From NCBI GenBank assembly GCA_002049455.2, contig KV919056.1, positions 34,268-98,267 on the forward strand: 64,000 nt of DNA, given 5' to 3'. The notes beneath the pieces are model-generated. The model was not told where the DNA came from. It did not search any database and was given only the letters and a program-made list of their open reading frames with translations. Each line of letters starts with the position of its first letter. Positions within the stretch are counted from its first letter, which is position 1. Source of the DNA: Porphyra umbilicalis. Taxonomy: Eukaryota > Rhodophyta > Bangiophyceae > Bangiales > Bangiaceae. Below are positions 22,018 to 48,745 of this stretch, in pieces. A program made the translations under genes and the position numbers.

Positions 22018-24465
22018 TCATTGCAAAATCTTGGAGTCATTCTTCGCCAAGGCTTGAAGAACGCGAGAACCCGGCCCCAGGTAGCAGCGAAGGGGGTGAT
22101 CATTGAGACGTGACAGCGAGGAACATGGAAACAAGCTTTGAAAACATAAATGGCGGATTCTGTTCTCGTGAACGCGAGGTGGATGACGCCTAGCTGCGAA
22201 GAGATGAGTCCCAGACTGAAGTTCGAATGGAAGGGATGAAGGACACATTAGGTACAGTCGGCATGGTCTTGAGAGCAAAGCTTTCTTTGTCATTACCCCC
22301 CCCTCTATGAACACCCCCCCGTGATAAGGCCCAGGAGAGACGCGCACGGACGTTCGTAGCGTCTCAGCAAGCTCATACGCGTACAGTAGCCCCACAGCGC
22401 GCCCACGACAGGATATTATCAGCTCCACGGCCAACCGCAGAAGGCGGGTCGTCACTCCCATTGTGATGTGAAGAGGAATCGGAACGACTTGCCGAGGATC
22501 TAAGGAAAGTAGCGGCGCCCTAGCGATAGACCGGTGAGCGTGCTGAAAGAGCCTTGCGGTAGTCGCGTGAGGCAGAGTCGCGGGAGCGAAGGTGTCAGCC
22601 ATGGTGCACAAGTGCCCAGCCGTTCGTAGATTGGTAGCGGCTGGCAACTCCAGGTCTTGCACGGTCCCAAACCGCTCGTCTAAGTCCGCGTGCGACGCTC
22701 AGGCAGTATTAGGACTGTAGCACATAAGGCATGGCATTGTGGCACTTCCGCCTTTGTGCCCATGAAAAGACCACAGGGCCTCGTAGTCACCCGAAGAAAA
22801 CAATCGCACAGAGCGCCGCTCGCCATTCACGACGACACCGTCGCGCACAAGGTCCCGTACGTGCTGCAGATGCTCCTTCAGCATCTTGGATACCTCATCG
22901 TAGGAATCCTTCTCCGCCGCGCAGACAGCGACGAGGATGGTATTACTGAGCCAGTGGGGGTGCTTCTGGTTTGCCAGCACCATAACGACTTTCACCGAGC
23001 CAGGAGAGCCCCCCTTATCCAAGCCCAACGCGAGGTGAACATCCTTCAAGGTAGGCGGGGGTGACGCCGCCAGAGGGCAGCTGCCACTACCCACTGACGG
23101 TGGTGAGTAGGCATCCGTTTGAAGAATTAGCACGCAGTCGGCGCCACGAATGAGACGCTCCACGAATCCATTGGAAGCGCTCAGAGCAATCAGCTTCTCA
23201 GCGACCGCCTCCTTAAGGTTGACCAGATGAGCCCCTGTACTTGCCACGGTGACGCGTTTTTCCGGTAGATCAGCAAATCGGGAACGTGCAGCTCTCAAAA
23301 CCGGCTGGCTCGCGAGAGCCGCACGCGACCCGCCCATCCCCCGCCCGATGCTATAAAAGGCAGTCAGGCTCACTCCGTTGGTCTCGATAAGTCCGAGCTG
23401 CTGCTCTGGGGTCAGCGGGAGTGGTTGAGCGGCCTTGCTGCGTCGCCTCTGAGCCACGGTCGCCCGACCGCTCGCGACCGCTCCCAGCGCTACGGATTGC
23501 ACATGAGAAGCCACGTCAGCATCCTCCTGGGACACGACCACCTTCGCCAATAGGCTCGAGCCAATCGCACTTCGATGATAGCGCTGACTGCGCTTCACAC
23601 GTGCCTTAAGTGGCGACATCCGCTTAACGTACACGCTCTCGTGACCGTTCGCCCGCTTAACGCGAAACTCAGGGGGACAGTCGTGTAGCTACATGGCCGC
23701 CTCAATCTGCTGTAGTGTAGGACCATCGCGGTCGTTCCGAAACGCGCCACTGCGGAGAAGCGCCAAAATTTCCGAGCAGCTAGGCGAATGAGGTGGAGGG
23801 GCGCGGGCTGATGCAATCGCTGATTGGGCCGCCTTCAGCTGCTCGTTCAGGCGGACGACACACCGCCTCTCAAAATTAGCTTGGTTCAGCGCCTTTGCAC
23901 GCTCGCGTGTCAATGTGCACACGCGTGCAGCAAGGTGGGAGAGGCTTGGACCTGCCGAAACGTGAGTGGTCGCCAATGAGCTGGCCAGTGACGAGCCACC
24001 GACGGGAGCACTGCCAGACGCCGCGCTAGAGTGACCACGCCAATTCTCACACGACATTGGGGCCACCAAAGACGGCGCGGCCGAAGGTGCTACAGGGCCA
24101 TCGACGAAATTCGTCTCTGCGGGAGCCTTGCGTAGCCGTGCCCGCTTACTCCGACAGTAACAGCGGTCGCAAGTATCGTGCGGACTACCAAAATCTTCGG
24201 TGGCATGTAGGGACAAGCAAGGGATGGCAGGCAGCGCACGCACGCATGCAAGCAGCACGTCGTCGAGCTCGGGGAAAGCTCGGTTTTGCCAGGCTCGCAG
24301 TCCATGACTGGGCCGTAGAAAGGCGTCTGAGCATCCCGTGCAGCGATACGCCCAGACAGCTCCAGGGAACGCGCTCCTGGTATCAGGATCAGACAGACTG
24401 CAGGTGGAATGCAAAATATATGAGAGAAAGAAGAGCAACAGAGCGATTTGTGATAGTGTGAGCAT
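22018..24465 (-). pseudogene. Uncharacterised transposon-like protein, copy 2
   Basis: One minus-strand frame of 816 codons with two stops only: TAG at 23691-23689 and TGA at 22701-22699. The N-terminal third has Cys pairs (YRCTGCSDAF; DTCDRCYC), which may bind zinc, and a helical segment (LTRERAKALNQANFERRC). The middle holds the blocks shared with the copy at 18.6-20.6 kb: HLVNLKEAVAEKLIALSASN, ALGLDKGGSPGSVKVV, SGDYEALWSFHGHKGG plus a Cys pair, then PIPLHITMGVTTRLLRLAV and GPYHGG. Likeness to the other copy ends near 22300, so the C-terminal block is lost and the remaining codons to 22018 are probably unrelated. Frame preserved, stops few: a fairly young corpse. The role is inferred as transposition. 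Confidence 0.65.
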
Positions 24466-30469: not shown

Positions 30470-31620
30470 CCTCCCCCCCCACCCACACCCCCACCCCCCC
30501 CCCGCGCCCACCCCAACTTACGCCCACACCCGTGCCGCTGCCGCCACCGCCGTGGCCACCCGTCCCAGGAGAGCGGCGGCGCCCAGGGCGGCCTCCCCCC
30601 GCCCTCCCCCCCCAACTACGCCCAAACCCGCAGCAGGCCGTGGCTTAACGCCCCCAACCCCCTCCCCCCCAAACACACACCTACACCGGCGGGCGGCCTC
30701 TTGCCGCCCTCCCCCGCATCCACGCCCAAACTCGCGGGCTGCGCTGCAACCCCAGTGGTCTTACACCCCCCCCCCCACCCCCCCCTTCAAACCGGGGTAA
30801 CCATCGCCGCCGCCACCGCCGTTGCCGCCGCCGTCAGAATCGTCGCCGTCGCCGCCGCGACCACCCTTGCCGCCGACATCGGCGCCGTCGGCGCCGTCGC
30901 TGCCACCACCGCCGTTGCCGCCACCTTTGGGGACGTTGCCGCTGCCGCCGCAACTTCCATTGCCGCCGCCGTTGGGAGCGTCGCCGTTGCCGCCGCCACC
31001 ACTTTTACCGCCACCGCCGTTGCCGCCGCCGTCGGGGGCGTCGCCGTTGACGCCGCGACCGCCCGTGCCGCCGACATCGGCGCCGTCGGCGCCGTCGCTG
31101 CCGCCACCGGCGTTGCCGCCGCCGTTGGATGCGTTGCCGTTGCCGCCGCCACTGCCATTGCCGCCGCCGTTGGGGACGTCGCCGTTGCCGCGGCCACTGC
31201 CCTTGCCGCCGCCGTCGGCGCCGTCGGTGCCGTCGCTGCCGCCACCGTTGCCGCCATTGCCGCGGCCGCTGCCGCCGCCGTCGTCGTCGTTGCCGCCGTC
31301 GGCGCCTTTGCCGCAATTGCCGCCGTCACCGCCGTCGCCGCCGCCCCTGCCGCCGCCGCCGCCGCCGCCGTCGCCGCCGTCGCCGCCGCCGTCGCCTCTC
31401 TCGCCACCGCCGTCGCCGCCGTCGCCGCCGCCGTTACCGCCGTTGCCCCGCCGCCCCGCGGCGGCTGCACAACCGCCGCATGCCCGTGGCCGGGCAGCCT
31501 TGGCGGGCGTCGGGAGGCGGCGGCGGACGCGGCGGCGGCGGCGGCGGCCGCGGTGGCGGCGGTCGCGGCGGGCGCGCCGACCACCCCGCCGCCGACGGCG
31601 GGCGGTACGTCCGCCACGCC
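30470..31620. repeat. GC-rich trinucleotide-type repeat island, 198-bp unit
   Basis: A long imperfect (GCC/GCCGTC/GTTGCC)n tract. A 198-bp direct repeat is visible: the block CGCCGACATCGGCGCCGTCG starts at about 30871 and again at about 31069. Read on the plus strand it gives Pro/Ser-rich or Ala/Val-rich sequence, and on the minus strand Gly/Asp/Asn-rich sequence (GGNGGG, DGADGADVGG). All look protein-like because the DNA is simple. 198 is a multiple of three, so a repeat protein (for example a Pro-rich wall protein or a Gly-rich one) is possible, but the sequence alone does not tell which strand, if any, is used. C-runs flank it at 30470-30500 and 30760-30786. Confidence 0.55.
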
Positions 31621-36614: not shown

Positions 36615-38280
36615 GTTTCGAGTGTTCTATTCTAGTTTTTGTACGCCACTTTTATTCATAATAAGCTAAATCAGCAGGGTCTTTTAACGAGAACGCACTG
36701 TCATTGATTGGGCGGTGTGCTTTGATTGGATGCCCTGGAGCTCTGCGTTCAGGCCAGTGTGAGGGGGGTTCAATCCTGAGAGTTCGGACCTGTCTGCTGG
36801 ATCCGAAGGCTGCACCGGGGGGCTTAGACCGTGTACCTTACAAATCTGCGAATCCTCTGCAATGGCGTGTTGCAGACTGCTTGCAGATCTGGGAAAGTGG
36901 CCGCGTGAGCGACGAGCAGCATGATTTCTTGAAGCACAGCTCTGCGGAGCATCTCATTGTCGTGCATTTATGCAAGAAACACGGAGGACCAGTGTTTTTC
37001 TTGTATGGAAAGCACCGTCGCGGTGCGAGGATCTTGCGCCAAAAAGGTCCAGCGTGATCCCCCCCCCGTTTGTTTCTGCCTACGACAAGCCTTTATTGTT
37101 TTTGACCTGCAGGAACTCTGCTGGAAAAATGTTCTAGGTCGGTGCTGAACCCCTGTTGCAGTGCACATCTTCTGCGCCGGATCTGTGGAAACCTACCACT
37201 GGGCTGCAGTGGCAGCGCCTGTCTTTGGCATCAAGTCTGCTGCACAATGACGATAACTGCTTCCTATGAGTCAAAATGAGATAACTTCGCGCCTCCTAGG
37301 AATTAGAACAGCGTGCAGCAGAAGAGCAGCACGAGCTGAGCATCGTCTCAGCATTTGGATGACCCAGACAAGCTGCGAATGAGCATAAAAACATGCGTGA
37401 CTATCTGCCAGATATCTGTCAAACCAGCAGGCTGCCAGCACACAATAGCCCGACAAGCAGCCATTTGGCAGACTGTGGAGATTTTGCAACAGCCTGCGAC
37501 ACGGAATCAGCAGATCTGTAAGGTACCAGGGATGAGCGTCTTCGGAGAAACCATCCATGAATAGCATGATTGCGGTATATCATCAATAATTCGCCTCGAA
37601 TATGATCAAAACCATTGTACGCCACGTGGCGCCACACCAAGAGGGTCCGCTGGTGCGCTCTGCAGGTCAGAGGCACTGCCGACGTGCTGACCACAGCCGA
37701 CGGCGACCTCTCCGTGCAAAAAAGGCCATCAAGGGCGAGGCTGTCATCTTGCCTGAGATGACAGCAAGGTGTGCCTCCACCAGGTGCACTCGGGGACAGA
37801 ACCGAGGAACCCATCCTGTGCCACTTGTGCCCCCTTGTCCTCTGCCTGAATGTGCGATGTTGCCTGCAGGCGGTTCATTTGCGGCCGACTACGGCGGCCG
37901 GATTGGTCGCACGCGTAGACTGATCATGCACTGTGCTCTGCAGCTGCTGTCCCTTGCCGCTGTCATCCTCGCGCCACCGTGGATCGGCGTGATCGCGACC
38001 GTGCCGTATGGGGAGGAGGCCCGGGGGGCAAGGGAGGTGCGCATCTGTCCACCCCCTACAGTAGTGGATCGGCCAACCTCGTGGGCGTGAGGGAGCCACG
38101 TGATTATGATATCATCCCACAGACCTGACGATTAGGATGATTCTTCCACATTTATCGTCGAAACCATGACATGATAATTATTCCTTCTCATCTTTGTAAG
38201 GTACACGGTTTCAGCCCCACTGCGCTGTAGGCGTGTACTTCACGCCCTTTCCGTGATTGGAAAGTCACGTTTTACGTGAT
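36615..38280. other. No firm gene; possible membrane-protein exon at 37871-38090
   Basis: Mostly mixed sequence with short frames. One stretch after a CCTGCAG acceptor-like site at 37870 reads GGSFAADYGGRIGRTRRL then a hydrophobic segment (CALQLLSLAAVILAPPW), which loosely recalls the loop and next helix of a major-facilitator transporter. It is too short and isolated to call. Confidence 0.3.
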
Positions 38281-38628
38281 TATGGTGCGTGTCCCAAAAA
38301 TTCGACATGCGCGTTTTCTGGAAGACTGACACATCACTGCACGGGGGCAGGCGGGGTGGGGTACGAGAAAATTCTCAACTGGCCTCCATGGAAAGAGCCT
38401 CTCCCGAGACGTTCTTGCCTGACAACTCCTTATTACCTGACTGTGGGCCCTGTTCTGTGGACCTCTCAGCTAACTCCGATCTTGGAGCCAGTCTTTTTCA
38501 GGATCTTGGGGTTACAGGTTTGCATCGCCAAAGCTCATGTGCTAACTGGAGCTTCGATGAGGGATGTCCCAAATCGTGTTTTCCTCACAGGGGGCTACAT
38601 GGCGGTCTTTTTCACGTTTTTATTGGTA

Positions 38629-39256
38629 TGGTGCGTGTCCCAAAAATGAGACATCGCGGTTTTTTCTTTTTTTCTCGGCCCACCGGCCTTATGCAACGGT
38701 CCGATAATGTAATGTGACCCACTCGGTCCCACTGTGGTTCCAGAATGGCCCCTGACAGTGTTAGTGGAGGCGGCACCTCCTGACGTGTCATGGGGTATAG
38801 TGTCATTCATTGCAGCTTCCACAGGTGCCGACCACGCGCCCCAATCAAATGCACGAATACTAGAGCAGGCATGTGCTGACAGTTCGTGCACGAAGAAAAG
38901 GGCACGACCTTACCAATAAAAACGTGAAAAAGACCCCCATGTAGCCCCCTGTGAAGAAAACACGATTTGGGACACCCCTCATCGAAGCTCCAGTTAGCAC
39001 ATGAGCTTAGGCGTTGCAAACCTGTAACCCCAAGAACCTGAAAAAGACTGGCTCCAAGATCGGGGCTATCTGAGAGGTCCACAGAACAGGGCCCACAGGC
39101 GGGTACTAAGGAGTTGTCAGCCAAGAACGCGTCGGGAGAGGCTCTTTCCATGGAGGCCAGTCGAGAATTTTCTCGTACCCCACCCCACCTGCCCCCGTGC
39201 AGTGATGTGTCAGTCCTTCAGAAAACGCGCATGTCTTATTTTTGGGACACGCACCA
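38629..39256 (+). mobile_element. 628-bp element copy 2, nested in copy 1
   Basis: A complete 628-bp copy with TGGTGCGTGTCCCAAAAAT at the left and its inverted partner at the right, flanked by a duplicated TA (38627-38628, 39257-39258). It inserted into a TA of copy 1 in the inverted orientation. It is nearly identical to copy 3: I counted roughly ten differences over the length. A minus-strand frame of 114 codons (39151-38807, starting MERASPDAFLADNS) is open here and in copy 3; whether it is ever translated is unknown. The TA site suggests mobilisation by a Tc1/mariner- or pogo-type transposase. Confidence 0.92.
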
Positions 39257-39296
39257 TAAGGTGGTGCCCTTTTCTTCGTGCACAAGTTGTCTGCAC

Positions 39297-40429
39297 TAGG
39301 GTTGCCCAACTGGTTTATCGTAATTGGTTAAAACTGGTTTACATTGGGTAAAAATCGGACATCGCTTGCAAACTAGTTTGGGATGCAAAATATTGGTTAA
39401 ACTGGTTTTTTAAAATACGGAACAGTTGTGGTCACGTGACCGGAATTGTCCCAGTTCTTTGGCGTTAAGTGCGTGACGAGTCCAAACTTGATGACGCGTG
39501 CACGACCAGATCCGACGACTCGTGTCTTTGTCTCTCACACCGGCCCCGTCGCCGGCGCTTCCCGTGCTGCGAGCCCACCATGGCTCCCGCACACAAGTCG
39601 GGCAACCACACCCCACACGCCCGCACAGGAAAAGGACCGCCACGCACGCATCACGCCGCCGTGCGGGAAGAGTGAAGGTGCATGTACTTAGCAGCCTCGC
39701 GTAGATCTGGGAAAGAAAAGAAACAAGGAGGACCAATGCGCATGCCAAGAACACATCATGCACACAGAAGCAAAAGAGAAGGGAGCGCCGCGCAGAGGAG
39801 ACAGATGCTCGTGTCAGACGCGCTGCACACAGACAGCATCACATGTACTGGCAGCTCGAGCGAGGTCCACATATCACCTACAAACGTATCACCCACAAAC
39901 ACACGCGAGCACAATTCCATGTATCATACCATGCGGCTGGACGTGATGATGAGGGATGATGCCACAACCCTATGCGGTGCAGTAGACGGATGCCTACAAC
40001 AAGTCAAAGACCAGCGTGGGTACAGCACATGGCACCAATGACCAACCGACGACAGAGCGTTGGGCGGGGGCGCGAGGAGGGAGGTAGACTTGCAACGGGC
40101 TCGTTAGGCGTGGCACCGAGAGCAACAGAGACAACGGAACAGGATAGGGTGGGGGGGGGACGAGTGTGGCGCTTGGGTCGGCGTGGCCTCGGAGAGTGGA
40201 TTGCCCATGCCCGGGATGGGCCAACACGGCTGAAATTGCCGTGCGGGCTGTCCGTGCACCTGTCACCTCTTGGGTGGCTGCGACCCACTCGCTGCGGAGC
40301 CACAGACACCCAGTCTCATTTGTGGCTGGTGCTCGCCCTTGTCCAACTAACTAGTTTAAAAACTGGTTATTGGCTACCGAACACATCGGATGAACTGGTT
40401 CGGCCGCGCGAACCAATTGGGCAACCCTA
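39297..40429. mobile_element. 1133-bp non-autonomous hAT-type element
   Basis: The ends are inverted copies starting TAGGGTTGCCCAA, followed by TGGTT. The 8-base sequence GTCTGCAC is duplicated on both sides (39289-39296 and 40430-40437). An 8-bp target duplication with a (C/T)AGGG terminus is typical of the hAT superfamily. The words AACTGGTT, AATTGGTT and AACTAGTT are repeated many times in the first 130 and last 100 bases, like the subterminal transposase-binding repeats of hAT elements. The interior shows no hAT transposase. It sits inside copy 1 of the 628-bp element. Confidence 0.9.
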
Positions 40430-40973
40430 GTCTGCACATGCCTGCTCTAGTATCTGTGCATTTGATTGGGCCGCGTGATCGTCACCTGTCGAAGTTGCAA
40501 TGAATGACACTTTACCCCATGACACGTCAGGATGTGCCGCCTCTGCTAACACTGTCAGGGGCTGTTCTGGAAGCACAGTGGGACCGAGTGGGTCACATTA
40601 CATCATCGGACCGTTGCAGAAGGCCAGTGGGCCGAGAAAAAAAGAAAAAACCACGATGTCTCATTTTTGGGACACGCACCATACATGTACGTTTTTTCAC
40701 GTGATCACTCATCACGCCCAAGCTGTTAAGGGCGTGAAATGGGGCGTAACGTCATCGAATAATTACGCGGCCGACGAACTTGAGGTTGTGCAATCTAATG
40801 CACTGGAGATGTGGACGGGGGCGCCCTGCAGCAGCCCAAGATGACCACCTCACAGGCCCTCGCACGCCGCTTCGAACGCCACGGGTTTGGCCCCCTCCCA
40901 TACGGGTGCTTTTTCTGCGTCAGTGGCTGCGGCTGCGATGGCAGCTTCTGCTTCTGCAGCTGCCGTAGTGGTA

Positions 40974-41601
40974 TGGTGCGTGTCCCAAAAATGAGACATC
41001 GCGGTTTTTTCTTTTTTTCTCGGCCCACTGGCCTTCTGCAACGGTCCGATAATGTAATGTGACCCACTCGGTCCCACTGTGGTTCCAGAACGGCCCCTGA
41101 CAGTGTTAGCGGAGGCGGCACCTCCTGACGTGTCATGGGGTATAGTGTCATTCATTGCAGCTTCGACAGGTGCCGACCACGCGCCCCAATCAAATGCACG
41201 GATACTAGAGCAGGCATGTGCTGACAGTTCGTGCACGAAAAAAAGGGCACGACCTTACCAATAAAAACGTGAAAAAGACCCCCATGTAGCCCCCTGTGAA
41301 GAAAACACGATTTGGGACACCCCTCATCGAAGCTCCAGTTAGCACATGAGCTTAGGCGTTGCAAACCTGTAACCCCAAGAACCTGAAAAAGACTGGCTCC
41401 AAGATCGGGGCTATCTGAGAGGTCCACAGAACAGGGCCCACAGGCGGGTACTAAGGAGTTGTCAGCCAAGAACGCGTCGGGAGAGGCTCTTTCCATGGAG
41501 GCCAGTCGAGAATTTTCTCGTACCCCACCCCACCTGCCCCCGTGCAGTGATGTGTCAGTCCTTCAGAAAACGCGCATGTCTCATTCTTGGGACACGCACC
41601 A
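40974..41601 (+). mobile_element. 628-bp element copy 3, intact
   Basis: Complete 628-bp copy flanked by TA (40972-40973 and 41602-41603), same orientation as copy 2 and almost identical to it. The same 114-codon minus-strand frame is open (41496-41152). The inverted ends match over about 25 bases apart from a few mismatches. It lies 292 bases to the right of the nest in otherwise unrecognised DNA, so it is an independent local insertion. Confidence 0.92.
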
Positions 41602-41603
41602 TA

Positions 41604-43415
41604 CAGCGGTGATCGTCCTGATTTAGTCCGAGTGCATCTATTTGCGATTTTCGATGTTGGCACCGATGTGGCATACAGTGCATCGAAGATCGATTCCGCT
41701 ACACTTGAGATCGACGATGCGATGCACATCGGGGAGATGCGGGCCGATTCGGACATCACATAAGTCCAGGCCACCGATACGATTGCGCTAAACGCAGGTA
41801 GTGGGATTTAATCATGACGAGCCAGTTGAGACACGTGCCCTTCGAGATTTTATTGATTGAATGCGGCACGCGATCCGGTTCCGGACGCTGTACGGCAAGT
41901 GGAGAAGGTGCATGGAACAGAACAGAAGGGATGAAGAGGGCAAACCAATACAGCCAGCAAGAGAGAGGAACACAACATAGAGCGCACAGTCGACTTGAAC
42001 TGACGTCAGTACAGAGCAAGCAGAGCGCGTGTGACGAGTCTAGAGCCCACTTGCCGCCACTGATCTCACCACCCCCAACGACGCCCACGTCTCCCACGCC
42101 ACCGATCCGCTGGCACTCCTCCCCCCCAACCTCCTCGGAGAACATACGGATGCGCCTGTGTGGCAGCGAGATAAACAGAACAGAGTACAGAAGATCGTCA
42201 GCCACCACTTCATAAGGAAGGAAAACCCAAGAGCAAGAGCAAACACAGTATGATACAGCGATTGTAATGGTGCGTGTTCCAAGCCCAAGCACATCGTGCG
42301 CCCAGGCAAATAGCGATTGAAAACGCCGTCATCAAAAAAGGAAATGCCCCGGCGGATCCATCACGTCCGAGGGACACTCAATCACCGGAACATGCAGAGC
42401 ACTCACCAGGCAGGCACAGTCACGTACCGAGCACACATGCACGACAAGGTGTACGATAACGACCATCTGGAAGGAGGCGGGGCGCAACGTCACGGACCCC
42501 ACACGGTGCACCGTGCCCACCGGTGGGGAGCGAGCCCACGGTCAAGTCAACCGCGGGCCACGCACGCCGAAGGGAGCCTCGTCGGGTGAGTGAGCCACGA
42601 GCGGCCCGCCGGAGGCAACGTGGCCTCCTGAAGACGCAGAATCAAGGCACCGTCGGTGTGGGGTTTTCTAACTCCTTGTTTTTGCAATAAACTTACACAA
42701 GAAGGCCTTCATTGAGCCCTCAAGCCCCCCCCACGTCCTCCAAGTTCAGGCGAGGCCTCCGATTTCCGCATCGCCGGTCGCCTGTCAAGTCGCATCGCAA
42801 CGATGGCCAGGATTAGACATACGATGCGCGTCCGAGACTGCATCGAAATCGGGTAAGGATCGGTTGATGTGCATCGGGCGAGAAAGATCGGCTGTAGATG
42901 CAGAAAACACAAAGGAGGACGATCGTCTGCAAAGTGGGGCATATCGTCTGCAAAGTGGGGCATATGCTGATTTGCTGTACTGGCGCCGGTACCCACCATT
43001 TTCAAATTGCCTCCGAACGCCTCCAGTACAGGCTGAAATGGCATGTACTAGGCCATATTCGACCCCCCTCCACACTGCAAAACTTCCGATATAGTATAGA
43101 AACGATATTCGCGTTTTAGACCGCGGCGCTCCTCTGCACTCTCGCAGTATAGACAAGAACTGCGTCCCAGACATGAAACGTAGACCTCTGTGACAGCCAG
43201 ATTGCGGTTATTTCTGAGCGACGAGCGTGTCCTACGTGACGTTGCCTGGATCAATTACGTTGCTGGGAAAGTGATGGTGTATATTGCGCTTCCGGGGGCT
43301 TCCAGGGGCTGCCCCCCACGACTCCGACGCTGCCGCCCCCCAACCGTCCCTACCTCCCCCCCCCCGCCTCCCCCCCAGCCCCCGACCAACCCACCCACCG
43401 GCTCCTATCACCGGT
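41604..43415. other. No gene recognised
   Basis: Short frames only. A lone TGGTGCGTGT at about 42269 resembles the end of the 628-bp element, but the rest does not follow. AATAAA occurs at about 42687. A 21-bp tandem duplication (TCGTCTGCAAAGTGGGGCAT unit) lies at about 42925-42966. TGCATCGA/CGATGCGA-type words recur near 41640-41740 and 42810-42900. Confidence 0.4.
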
Positions 43416-43419
43416 CCGC

Positions 43420-44200
43420 CCGCCCGCCACTTGGTCGCCTCCTGCTTGCCGCCAGCCCCCCATTTGCCTGCCACTTGCGCGTCACTTGGACGCCACTTGC
43501 CCTCCTCTTGCCCCGCACTCGCTTGCTTCCCACTCGCCCGCCACCAACCAGCCGCCCGCCCCCGACGTAACCGCCACCAGAACACCGACTTTTCACCACC
43601 GACACCCTGTCTCGCCGCCGCCAGCCCGCCACCTCTTGCCCGCCGCCGACCCCGCGCCCGCCTGCCGTCGGCCCCCCGCAAGTTCCCTTCCGCTGATCCA
43701 CCACCTGCCTGCCGCCAGCCCGCCACCTCTTGCCCGCCGCCGACCCCTCGCCTGGCTGCCGCCAGCCCGCCGCCCCTTGCGCGCCACCGATCCGCCGCCT
43801 TGCCGCCGCCAGCCCGTCCCCTCTTGCACGCCGCGGACGCCCCGCCTTGCCGCCGCCAGCCTGCCGCCTCGTGCGCACCGCGATCCACCGCCTTGGCGCC
43901 GCCAGCCTGCTCCCACTTGCCGTCCGCGGACGCCCCGCCTTGCCGCCGCCAGCCCGGCGCCACTTGCGCACTACCGATCCACCGCCTTGCCGCCGCGAAC
44001 CCGCCGCCACTTCCCCGCCAACGACCCAATGCCTGCCTGCGACCAGCGCACAGCCTACCCCCACCACCCCACCGCCCGCCGCCCACTTTCCTATCGCCAG
44101 CCCACCGCCAACCAACCGCCTGCCCGCCACCAGGCCACCGCCTTGCAACCGCCTGGCCACCCCCTGCGCGCCGTCCGCGCGCTGCCACCAGCCCACCTCC
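43420..44200. repeat. 47-bp GC-rich minisatellite with alternating units
   Basis: The phrase CTTGCCGCCGCCAGCC(C/T)G starts at about 43799, 43846, 43892, 43939 and 43986, a 46-47 bp period. Neighbouring units alternate between a GCGGACGCCCCGC type and a CGATCCACCGC type, so the higher-order unit is about 94 bp. Flanking sequence from 43420 and up to 44200 is a more degenerate version. A 47-bp period is not a multiple of three, so the long open frames on both strands (Pro/Arg-rich plus, Gly/Arg-rich minus) are by-products of composition. Confidence 0.75.
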
Positions 44201-44290
44201 TGACAGATACCCGCCCACCACTACGTAGCACGCCCACGAACAGTCAGCCCATCGCCAAGCCACCCACCATCAGCAAAGAAATTGAGGTAT

Positions 44291-44460
44291 GACCCCCAGA
44301 GCTTCTGCGTCTACGTGCTGAACGCTGGTGGCTTCTGGCTGGCCAGGGGCGCCCCACACAGATTGATGTGTGACCCCATGAGCTTTGGCATCTACGTGCT
44401 GAACGCTGGTGGCTTCTGGCAGTCAAGGGACGCCCGACACAGATTGATGTGTGACAAACC
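44291..44460. repeat. 81-bp tandem repeat, two units
   Basis: Two units starting at 44291 and 44372, and the beginning of a third at 44453, share TACGTGCTGAACGCTGGTGG, CTTCTGGC and ACACAGATTGATGTGTGAC. 81 is a multiple of three. The minus strand keeps a frame across it with a 27-residue repeat (GHTSICVGRP, ARSHQRSARR), and the plus strand also stays open. No family recognised. Confidence 0.65.
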
Positions 44461-46793: not shown

Positions 46794-47660
46794 GTGCGGC
46801 GGCGCGGTGACGCGGCGGGCGGGCGGCTACCAGCCGTCGTTTCGTCTCGTGCCCTCTGTGCTGCACAGTCGAAGGGCGACTTGGGGTTTCTCGTGGCGGC
46901 CCCGTACGGCGCGGCGGCGCCCACGTCGGCGGCGGGCGGCACGGCTCTACAGACGCGGCGGTTGAGGTGGCGGCTCCCACTTCTGCTGCGCGCGGCGCGG
47001 CTCCAGAGACGCGGCGGTTTGGGTCGCCTCGGCAGCCTGCTGGTCGCTCGGCCCACTGGGCACAAGCGCCTCTTTCTCGCCGCCTCCCCGACCATGGCGC
47101 CGGCAGACGGCCGCTCCATCCGCCGCCCCCGCCCCGTCGCGGCCGGCCTTTCCGGCCACCCCGTCGGTGCCAGCACCCGCCGCCGCCCCCTCCCCCCACT
47201 GGACGTGCCACCTCCGTCCGCCCTGCCCACGGCTGCCGCGGCCGCCACAGCCATGATCGGGTCGAGTCGGCTGCCGACGCGCCGACGTGCGCCGCCCGCC
47301 CGCCGTGGCGCCGCCCACGAAAGCGGCGGTGGCAAGGCGCGCGCGGCACCACCGCCTCCCGTCGGCAGCCCTGTCACGCCGCCGCCCGAGGACCATGACG
47401 CAGCGCCGTCGGTGCGGCGGCTGCCCGCACGCGGCGGCGGCGCCGCCGCCGCCGCGTCGACGGCCACGACCGGCATGGTCGGGCGGCATGGCGGTTGGCC
47501 AACGCAGCCGCCCCCCTGCCGCACCGTCCCCGGCCCAGTGGCGCCGCTGCTGTCGCGCGCCGCGTCGGCGGTGCCGCAGGTGCCCCAGCCGTCGGGCACC
47601 CCCCCCTCCCCCCCCCCTGCCGCCGCCTCTGGCCTCGGCGGTGACGGTGATAGTGGCGAC

Positions 47661-47691
<31 letters not shown>

Positions 47692-48745
47692 GCGGCGGCG
47701 GCGGCGGCGACTCGCCGCTCACGGGGGTCCTCTGGTCGGGTGGCGGCGCCGCTGGCGCCGCCGGCGTCCCCCCCCCGCTCGACTTGTGTTGGGCGGACCG
47801 GCGGTGCGCAGACGGCGACGCGCTCCTCTCCAACGTTACGATTGAGGCGGGGGGGGCGGCCGACTCGCCATTGGCCGTGGGAAGGGCAGCCGCCCCGCCG
47901 CCGGCGGGGGAGCGGGCGGCGTCCCTGCCGGCGGGGTGCCTCCCGCCGTTTGAGGACGCGTGGGAAGAGACGCCTCTGCCGACGTCGTCAGCGAGCTTGG
48001 TGTCCTCGGCGCCGTCGACGCCCCGCTCACTGTCGGTGGTGCCGTGTGCGGTGCCGTCGGCGGTGCCGTGTGCGGTGCCGTCGGCGGTGCCGTGTGCGGT
48101 GCCGTCGGCGGTGCCGTGTGCGGTGCCGTCGGCGGTGCCGTCGGCGGTGCCGTCGGCGGGGTCGTCGGCGGCGCCCTTGACGGTCCCGTCGGTGGCGCCA
48201 TTGATGCCTCGCACGCCCCGGGCGTCGACGGCGGCGCGCGTCGACGCCTTTTCGCCGCCCCGCCGGCAGCGGCATCGCGCCGGCCGCTTCCCGGCCGACC
48301 CCCCCCCCCCCCGCGTCGACATAGCCACGTCGACGGCCTCCTCCTCCTCCCTTCCCCACACCGACTGCGCCTCCACGGACGGCACCTCGACCGATGGCGA
48401 CGGGGACACAGACGCAGATGTCGGTTGCGCGATCCCCCTCCCCCCCACCACCCCTCCCGCCGCCCGTCACGACGCACCGCCGCCGCCGCGCGGCGCACCC
48501 TCGCGGCGGTCGCGACGCTCGCCGTCGACGACGACTGCTGGCACGCCGTCACCCTGTCGGCAGCGGCGGCGGCGGTGGCGGCGGCGGCAGAAGCCGAGGC
48601 GGCCGCCGATGCGCGCGCCGCGGCGGCGGCGGTCGGCGTCGCCGACGCGGTCGCCGCCGCGCGGCGGGGGCGCCGGTCGGCGGCGGCGGCAGAGGCGCGA
48701 GCGGCCGAGTTGGGGCGGCGCCTGGGGGGGGGGTGGTGCTGTTGA
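46794..48745 (+). CDS. Hypothetical low-complexity protein (uncertain)
   Basis: A long GC-rich plus-strand frame with some protein-like parts. After an Ala/Arg/Pro-rich N-terminal half and Gly/Asp tract it reads SPLTGVLWSGGG, PPPLDLCWADRRCADGD, ALLSNVTIEAGG, and LPPFEDAWEETPLPTSS. A 12-bp repeat then encodes CAVPSAVP units, followed by an acidic patch (STDGTSTDGDGDTDADVG). The best C-terminal sequence (AVATLAVDDDCWHAVTLSAAAA, then an Ala/Glu/Arg helix ending LGRRLGGGWCC, stop at 48743-48745) lies in another frame, so one frame change is needed in the C-runs near 48430-48460. The opposite strand is open too. I do not recognise a family. Strand and start are uncertain. Confidence 0.3.
48039..48158. 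repeat. 12-bp minisatellite, ten units
   Basis: Ten contiguous 12-base units in two forms, GTGCCGTGTGCG and GTGCCGTCGGCG, alternating strictly for the first eight and then three in a row of the second form. Codes for CAVPSAVP-type repeats in one plus frame and for DGTAHGTA-type repeats on the minus strand. Unit length is a multiple of three, so copy-number changes would not break a frame. Confidence 0.85.

Follow-up and report, generated by a model that had tools for sequence, protein, structure and literature searches.

One internal dinucleotide of a short transposon family, the TA at position 285 of the element (TA285, in a numbering that counts both flanking TAs), is a self-insertion hotspot, struck by the element's own family at least several hundred-fold more often than random target choice would give if there are about 378 copies. 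The site came to attention through a transposon nest in a window of 64,000 nucleotides (contig C296, 34268-98267), and the genome searched comprised 83,822,817 bases on 665 contigs. Our reading of the nest, to which we assign a probability of about 0.85 as a whole, is that a TA-inserting MITE of Tc1/mariner type lies nested in an older repeat, D, was hit by its own family at the TA285 hotspot, also received a hAT-type insert, and reinserts with a local bias. The original prediction placed the second copy of the element at this TA and missed that the target is a recurrently struck site.

The nest itself stands at the level of single bases. Its oldest copy had been described as cut into pieces of 346, 38 and 244 bp; these do sum to 628, and when joined and reverse-complemented they align without gaps, as predicted, to copy 3 (40 of 628 positions mismatched) and to copy 2 (44 of 628). 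Copies 2 and 3 differ from each other at 9 of 628 positions. Copies 1 and 3 are flanked by TA (38281-38282 and 40682-40683 for copy 1), copy 2 sits at a duplicated TA, and the hAT-type insert lies between two copies of the 8-bp target duplication GTCTGCAC, the latter two as originally placed (Table 1).

A fourth repeat, D, which hosts both copy 1 and copy 3, had gone unnoticed. The joined flanks of copy 1 have 42 matches in the genome, two of them the window itself, and 34 of the other 40 (counted from the match table) run across the insertion point; 31 of these 34 begin at query positions 119-131, corresponding to window positions 38218-38230. Three D paralogues were aligned, over 233 bp through the copy 1 site, at 84-85% identity and with at most one gap, and the uninterrupted paralogues give independent proof of the outer boundaries of copy 1. 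D reaches copy 3 and continues shortly past it, so that copy 3 sits in D as well. The nest had been called three-layered: the span first noted holds two levels, since copy 1 contains copy 2 as well as the hAT-type element, neither of which lies within the other, and the third level exists as the older repeat around copies 1 and 3. D predates copies 1 and 3, and copy 1 predates copy 2 and the hAT-type element, which upholds that part of the proposed order of events; the sequence leaves copy 2 and the hAT-type element undated against each other, and gives no order for copy 3 relative to copies 1 and 2. Another host repeat with an empty site is seen by eye at three further loci: L006 (C68) and L007 (C52) carry a MITE copy at the same sequence in opposite orientations, and at L168 (C55:134169-134229) this sequence is uninterrupted, with another copy 12 bp further.

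Table 1. Features of the nest and its surroundings, in window positions
Feature	Position	Strand	Remark
Host repeat D, left part, through the TA at which copy 1 inserted	38227..38282	+	matching stretches elsewhere cross the site
Copy 1, first of three pieces (346 bp, from the element's right side, with the target TA 38627-38628)	38283..38628	-	
Copy 2, full 628-bp MITE, at internal TA285 of copy 1	38629..39256	+	TA duplicated at 39257-39258
Copy 1, second piece, 38 bp, ending in GTCTGCAC (39289-39296)	39259..39296	-	alignment
Putative hAT-type non-autonomous element, 1133 bp	39297..40429	.	8-bp target duplication, inverted ends
GTCTGCAC, 8-bp target duplication, second copy	40430..40437	.	
Copy 1, last of three pieces (244 bp, with the element's left end)	40438..40681	-	alignment
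Further part of D, between copies 1 and 3, including the duplicated TA (40682-40683) and the TA preceding copy 3	40682..40973	+	
Copy 3, full 628-bp MITE, within D	40974..41601	+	TA at 40972-40973 and 41602-41603
TA285 hotspot dinucleotide, as in the uninterrupted copy 3	41256..41257	.	
D after copy 3, short, then divergence	41602..41621	+	inferred from alignment

Elsewhere in the window, a 47-bp tandem array (43554-44103) and an 81-bp tandem pair (44274-44435) lie a few kb from the nest, very GC-rich CCG/GGC triplet tracts at 31325-31415 and 47621-47711 are mutually inverted, and a reading frame of 306 amino acids at 22699-23619 (minus strand) matches DUF1280 (E 6.3e-06). The stretch 38200-41700 has no match among known phages, and Rfam returns nothing at the gathering threshold in the window.

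Genome-wide, searching for the family's terminal 28-base pattern with at most three mismatches gives 756 ends, and a control with the end pattern reversed has 0 matches. Half of this number gives a copy number of about 378, which may be an underestimate, and a share of roughly 0.3% of the genome (378 x 632 bp). Of 55 solitary full copies, 50 have the predicted TA at either end; these 50 are the solitary targets compared below, the other 5 being excluded. The terminal inverted repeats are identical at 25 of the first 26 positions between the two ends of copy 3, and the longest stop-to-stop stretch in the element is 136 codons. From its TA duplication and inverted ends, the element is probably a non-coding MITE of Tc1/mariner type. 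It shares with such MITEs the TA duplication, short inverted ends, lack of a gene and many near-identical copies, and differs in that its ends start TGGTGCGTGTCCC and in its marked self-insertion at one internal TA. Folded as single-stranded DNA, copy 3 has a z of -4.1 against 20 shuffles. Stretches of DDE_3 transposase are abundant in the genome (at least 150 matches, from the best 150 of 359 candidates scored), and comparing by eye the DDE_3 matches listed with the element ends listed gave no plausible autonomous partner. Locus L075, with two ends 1811 bp apart, was considered as an autonomous element and rejected, since it consists of two copies in inverted orientation, separated by about 594 bp of unrelated sequence. 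On C11, 35555-36126 and 40600-41171 form a 572-bp direct repeat, 99.65% identical, with a spacing of about 5 kb; it may represent the LTR pair of a young retrotransposon.

The 1133-bp insert appears to be of hAT type, judging by the length of its duplication and its inverted ends, TAGGGTTGCCCAA. An 8-bp target duplication is present at three of the four copies checked, the window copy included, and the genome holds at least 54 matching stretches, from 40 of 147 candidates scored. In its 8-bp duplication and inverted ends the insert resembles hAT non-autonomous elements, and it differs from them in that larger variants, about 1.4 kb long, have both of its end parts in common with it (positions 1-291 and 490-1133, from the spacing of matches). 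At one hAT-type copy, L118 (C34:147194-151327), the flanking 8-mers do not form a direct repeat; CTAGACAT, close to the left end of this copy, is the reverse complement of ATGTCTAG at the right end.

The hotspot shows first in junction counts. The right-hand junction of a family member at TA285 occurs 15 times exactly in the genome, and the left-hand junction 19 times with at most two mismatches, by a pattern that carried two degenerate letters and with 2 of the 19 lying within one nest. Roughly comparable left-hand searches, also at up to two mismatches, found 7 junctions at TA399, 5 at TA441 (one doubtful) and 1 at TA235, and end-to-end tandem junctions were found at 6 places with at most three mismatches; the genome-wide junction searches covered these four internal TAs and the end TAs. 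In the loci examined there are 44 junctions at TA285, allowing up to 7 of 24 flank letters to differ, and by our grouping they fall into 29 places (28 loci, of which C27 has two nests). Random choice among TAs would predict 0.05-0.08 such hits for 378 insertions. If many decayed copies had escaped the count, this expectation, which is quadratic in copy number, would still be near or below one at a thousand copies.

A sample not picked by flank points the same way. Among the first 100 exact ends listed (contigs C1-C28), 17 adjoin DNA of the element's own family, as do 18 of all 115 ends in the sampled regions. Twelve of these 18 are at TA285, two at TA316, two at TA441, and the remaining two are both sides of one tandem junction; the counts are of ends and not of events, and they represent 8 places, 6 of them with TA285.

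Nests at TA285 are complete, with both halves of the outer copy, in 10 cases (C430 included), and one-sided with proper ends in C101, C14, C17, C174, C398, C63 and the left nest of C27. A hand tally, which left out nests whose inner copy has no second end, gives 7 one-sided and 6 complete nests (C283 included) in the same orientation, and 5 complete and 1-2 one-sided nests in the inverted orientation. The tally is not read as proof that recombination shaped these nests. Multi-level nests were seen at L094 (C18:362980-365250), L107 (C27:322860-325600), L124 (C192:43000-44900) and L052 (C153:144446-147470), and in some of them the left and right halves occur in unequal tandem numbers, as if arrays of half-elements grow and shrink. 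Between the two nests of L107 (positions 1395-1408 of the locus), a TA-flanked 12-bp relic, TGGTGCGCACCG, reads like the two end stubs of an element minus its middle.

As to why TA285 is struck, a short target motif was tried and rejected: the motif is weak in 97 non-self flanks, and a PWM built from flanks ranks TA285 only at the 57th percentile. Of the remaining causes, DNA shape survives best, though we consider it less probable than not by a clear distance. On this account, A/T tracts flanking TA285 bend the DNA and attract TA-inserting transposases. TA285 does stand at the 99.9th percentile of window TAs by tract letters within 30 nt, the struck sites 316, 399 and 441 have tracts as well, and 11 of the 17 internal TAs are without them. 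Tracts are also more frequent near solitary targets than in the window as a whole (p 5.5e-6), but a locally matched comparison leaves a weak excess (permutation p 0.04, Wilcoxon p 0.34). Similarly, 24 of 97 flanks in the first set have a tract at -7 to -20 versus 13.6% expected (p 0.003), but a fresh set, drawn from a source list biased to a TATTGG-like 6-mer and so read with positions -1 to -6 excluded, has 6 of 40 and no excess. Nearer to the hotspot, TA291 lies six bases off with an equal tract score and has 0 of the 18 own-family junctions in the sample not picked by flank, and the tractless TA235 was struck once.

Recognition of the element by its own transposase is the more doubtful alternative. 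The sequence TAAGGTSGTGCCC beside TA285 resembles the element's own end TATGGTGCGTGTCCC, and it may be a relic end that attracts the transposase; no other of the 17 internal TAs is as end-like as TA285, and the TAs at real ends are struck too, as the 6 tandem junctions show. However, the end-likeness of TA285 reaches only the 94th percentile of window TAs, and the likeness is not clear at solitary targets (4 of 50 versus a background of 6%; means 4.26 versus 3.97, p 0.06). Moreover, by eye, other TA families have used the same site at least twice: C283 has a AGAGCATCTCC-ended element at TA285, and C20 a TGGCACTTCC-ended element, which favors a property of the DNA over recognition by the MITE family alone. 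More generally, several other TA-inserting families occur inside copies of the MITE, often at TA232/235, with TTGCTG-ended elements in L020, L033/L094, L038, L102 and L106, CAGTC-ended elements in L041 and L123, TGGCACTTCC-ended elements in L048 and L124, and others in L037 and L055.

The hotspot would be illusory if nests with an insert at TA285 had arisen in just one or two events and had later multiplied as a composite element or by gene conversion into other copies. One-sided nests with proper ends do resemble composites, and mutual conversion of copies is plausible in a repeat family. Yet of the 10 complete nests, 5 have the inner copy in the same and 5 in the inverted orientation, and inner copies are scattered on a tree of 76 full copies, which were not a random choice (those closest to copy 3, those at junction loci, and those from the C1-C28 list). 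The 14 inner copies at TA285 require 12 changes on this tree, against a mean of 13.1 for shuffled labels, and are thus about as scattered as random labels; support for the tree is modest, with 34 of 70 nodes above 0.8. Outside the family, the 28 nest loci yield 13 alignments, and by eye none of the 13 shows a nest end with matching unique DNA next to it at two loci. A third mobile family, TGGCACTTCC-ended, borders on both C20 and C192, in each case at a different TA of the MITE. Taken with these observations, an origin in few events seems quite improbable. Nesting of transposons is common and several other TA families also lie inside copies of the element, but that TE-rich regions tolerate insertions and produced the nest without further cause is more improbable still, because tolerance cannot favor one of 17 internal TAs at 29 places where 0.05-0.08 are expected.

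The local hopping that had been suggested for copies 2 and 3 gains support from the wider family, in a pattern that gene conversion could mimic. In four of nine pairs of full copies less than 20 kb apart, some of them from loci picked for their junctions, the two are nearest relatives in at least one direction; the permutation mean is 0.35, and none of 5000 permutations is as high. The same four pairs have a private base in common, which among the other 2841 pairs is true of 91 (Fisher p 0.0001). One of these close-kin pairs is copies 2 and 3, with one private base in common: the nearest relative of copy 2 is copy 3, and the nearest relatives of copy 3 are on other contigs. As for the other five near pairs, the members of the C4 pair rank 4th and 10th of 75, and the remaining four pairs show no close kinship. 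Gene conversion between neighbors or local duplication would look alike.

The history that we propose begins with copy 1, which inserted into the old dispersed repeat D. Copy 2 later landed in copy 1 at TA285, the hAT-type element landed elsewhere in copy 1, and copy 3 landed in D about 0.3 kb from the copy 1 site. Movement was probably by cut-and-paste, with transposase supplied in trans and with a local bias in reinsertion, and an intrinsic property of the DNA around TA285 may make this site a preferred target. Hits at TA285 in the same orientation would leave halves of the element in direct tandem, and these could then be shortened by later recombination or by use of alternative ends, yielding one-sided nests. 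Such a sequence of steps would be a concrete first stage on the way from a dispersed MITE to direct tandem repeats.

It is conceivable, if rather unlikely, that TA285 functions as an internal landing site, capturing members of the element's own family and at times those of other TA-inserting families; the family would then repeatedly trap itself, spare genes, and build tandem arrays of half-elements that could seed satellites. In that case, insertions drawn into the element itself would limit the harm that it does. The hotspot also has a practical side. One dinucleotide struck at 29 dispersed places, apparently mostly independently, is a sharp natural record of target choice, and target selection by TA-inserting transposases becomes testable on a defined stretch of about 60 bp.

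Self-insertion as a kind of event is known, and what is new to us is the sharpness of the TA285 hotspot; in the open-licence literature, which may lack older papers on nested MITEs, we found no single-dinucleotide self-insertion hotspot in a MITE. As far as the available parts of these sources go, double insertion and nesting have been reviewed as an origin of satellite DNA (PMC12628747), self-insertion or double insertion has been put forward as a satellite source (McGurk and Barbash 2018, cited in PMC12628747 and PMC12368964), self-insertions and multimers of transposons have been described (PMC4744444), and tandem MITE insertions are reported in cod (PMC12368964); the available part of PMC2997013 holds nothing on self-nesting. 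In that work, a family member likewise lands in or beside another copy and gives rise to tandem or nested arrays, whereas in the present family one internal dinucleotide is used at 29 dispersed places, and hits in the same orientation give tandem half-elements. The autoinsertions of plant LTR retrotransposons, as reported in PMC6911290, also have preferred targets; those are regions in a retrotransposon, in contrast to the single TA step in the DNA transposon described here.
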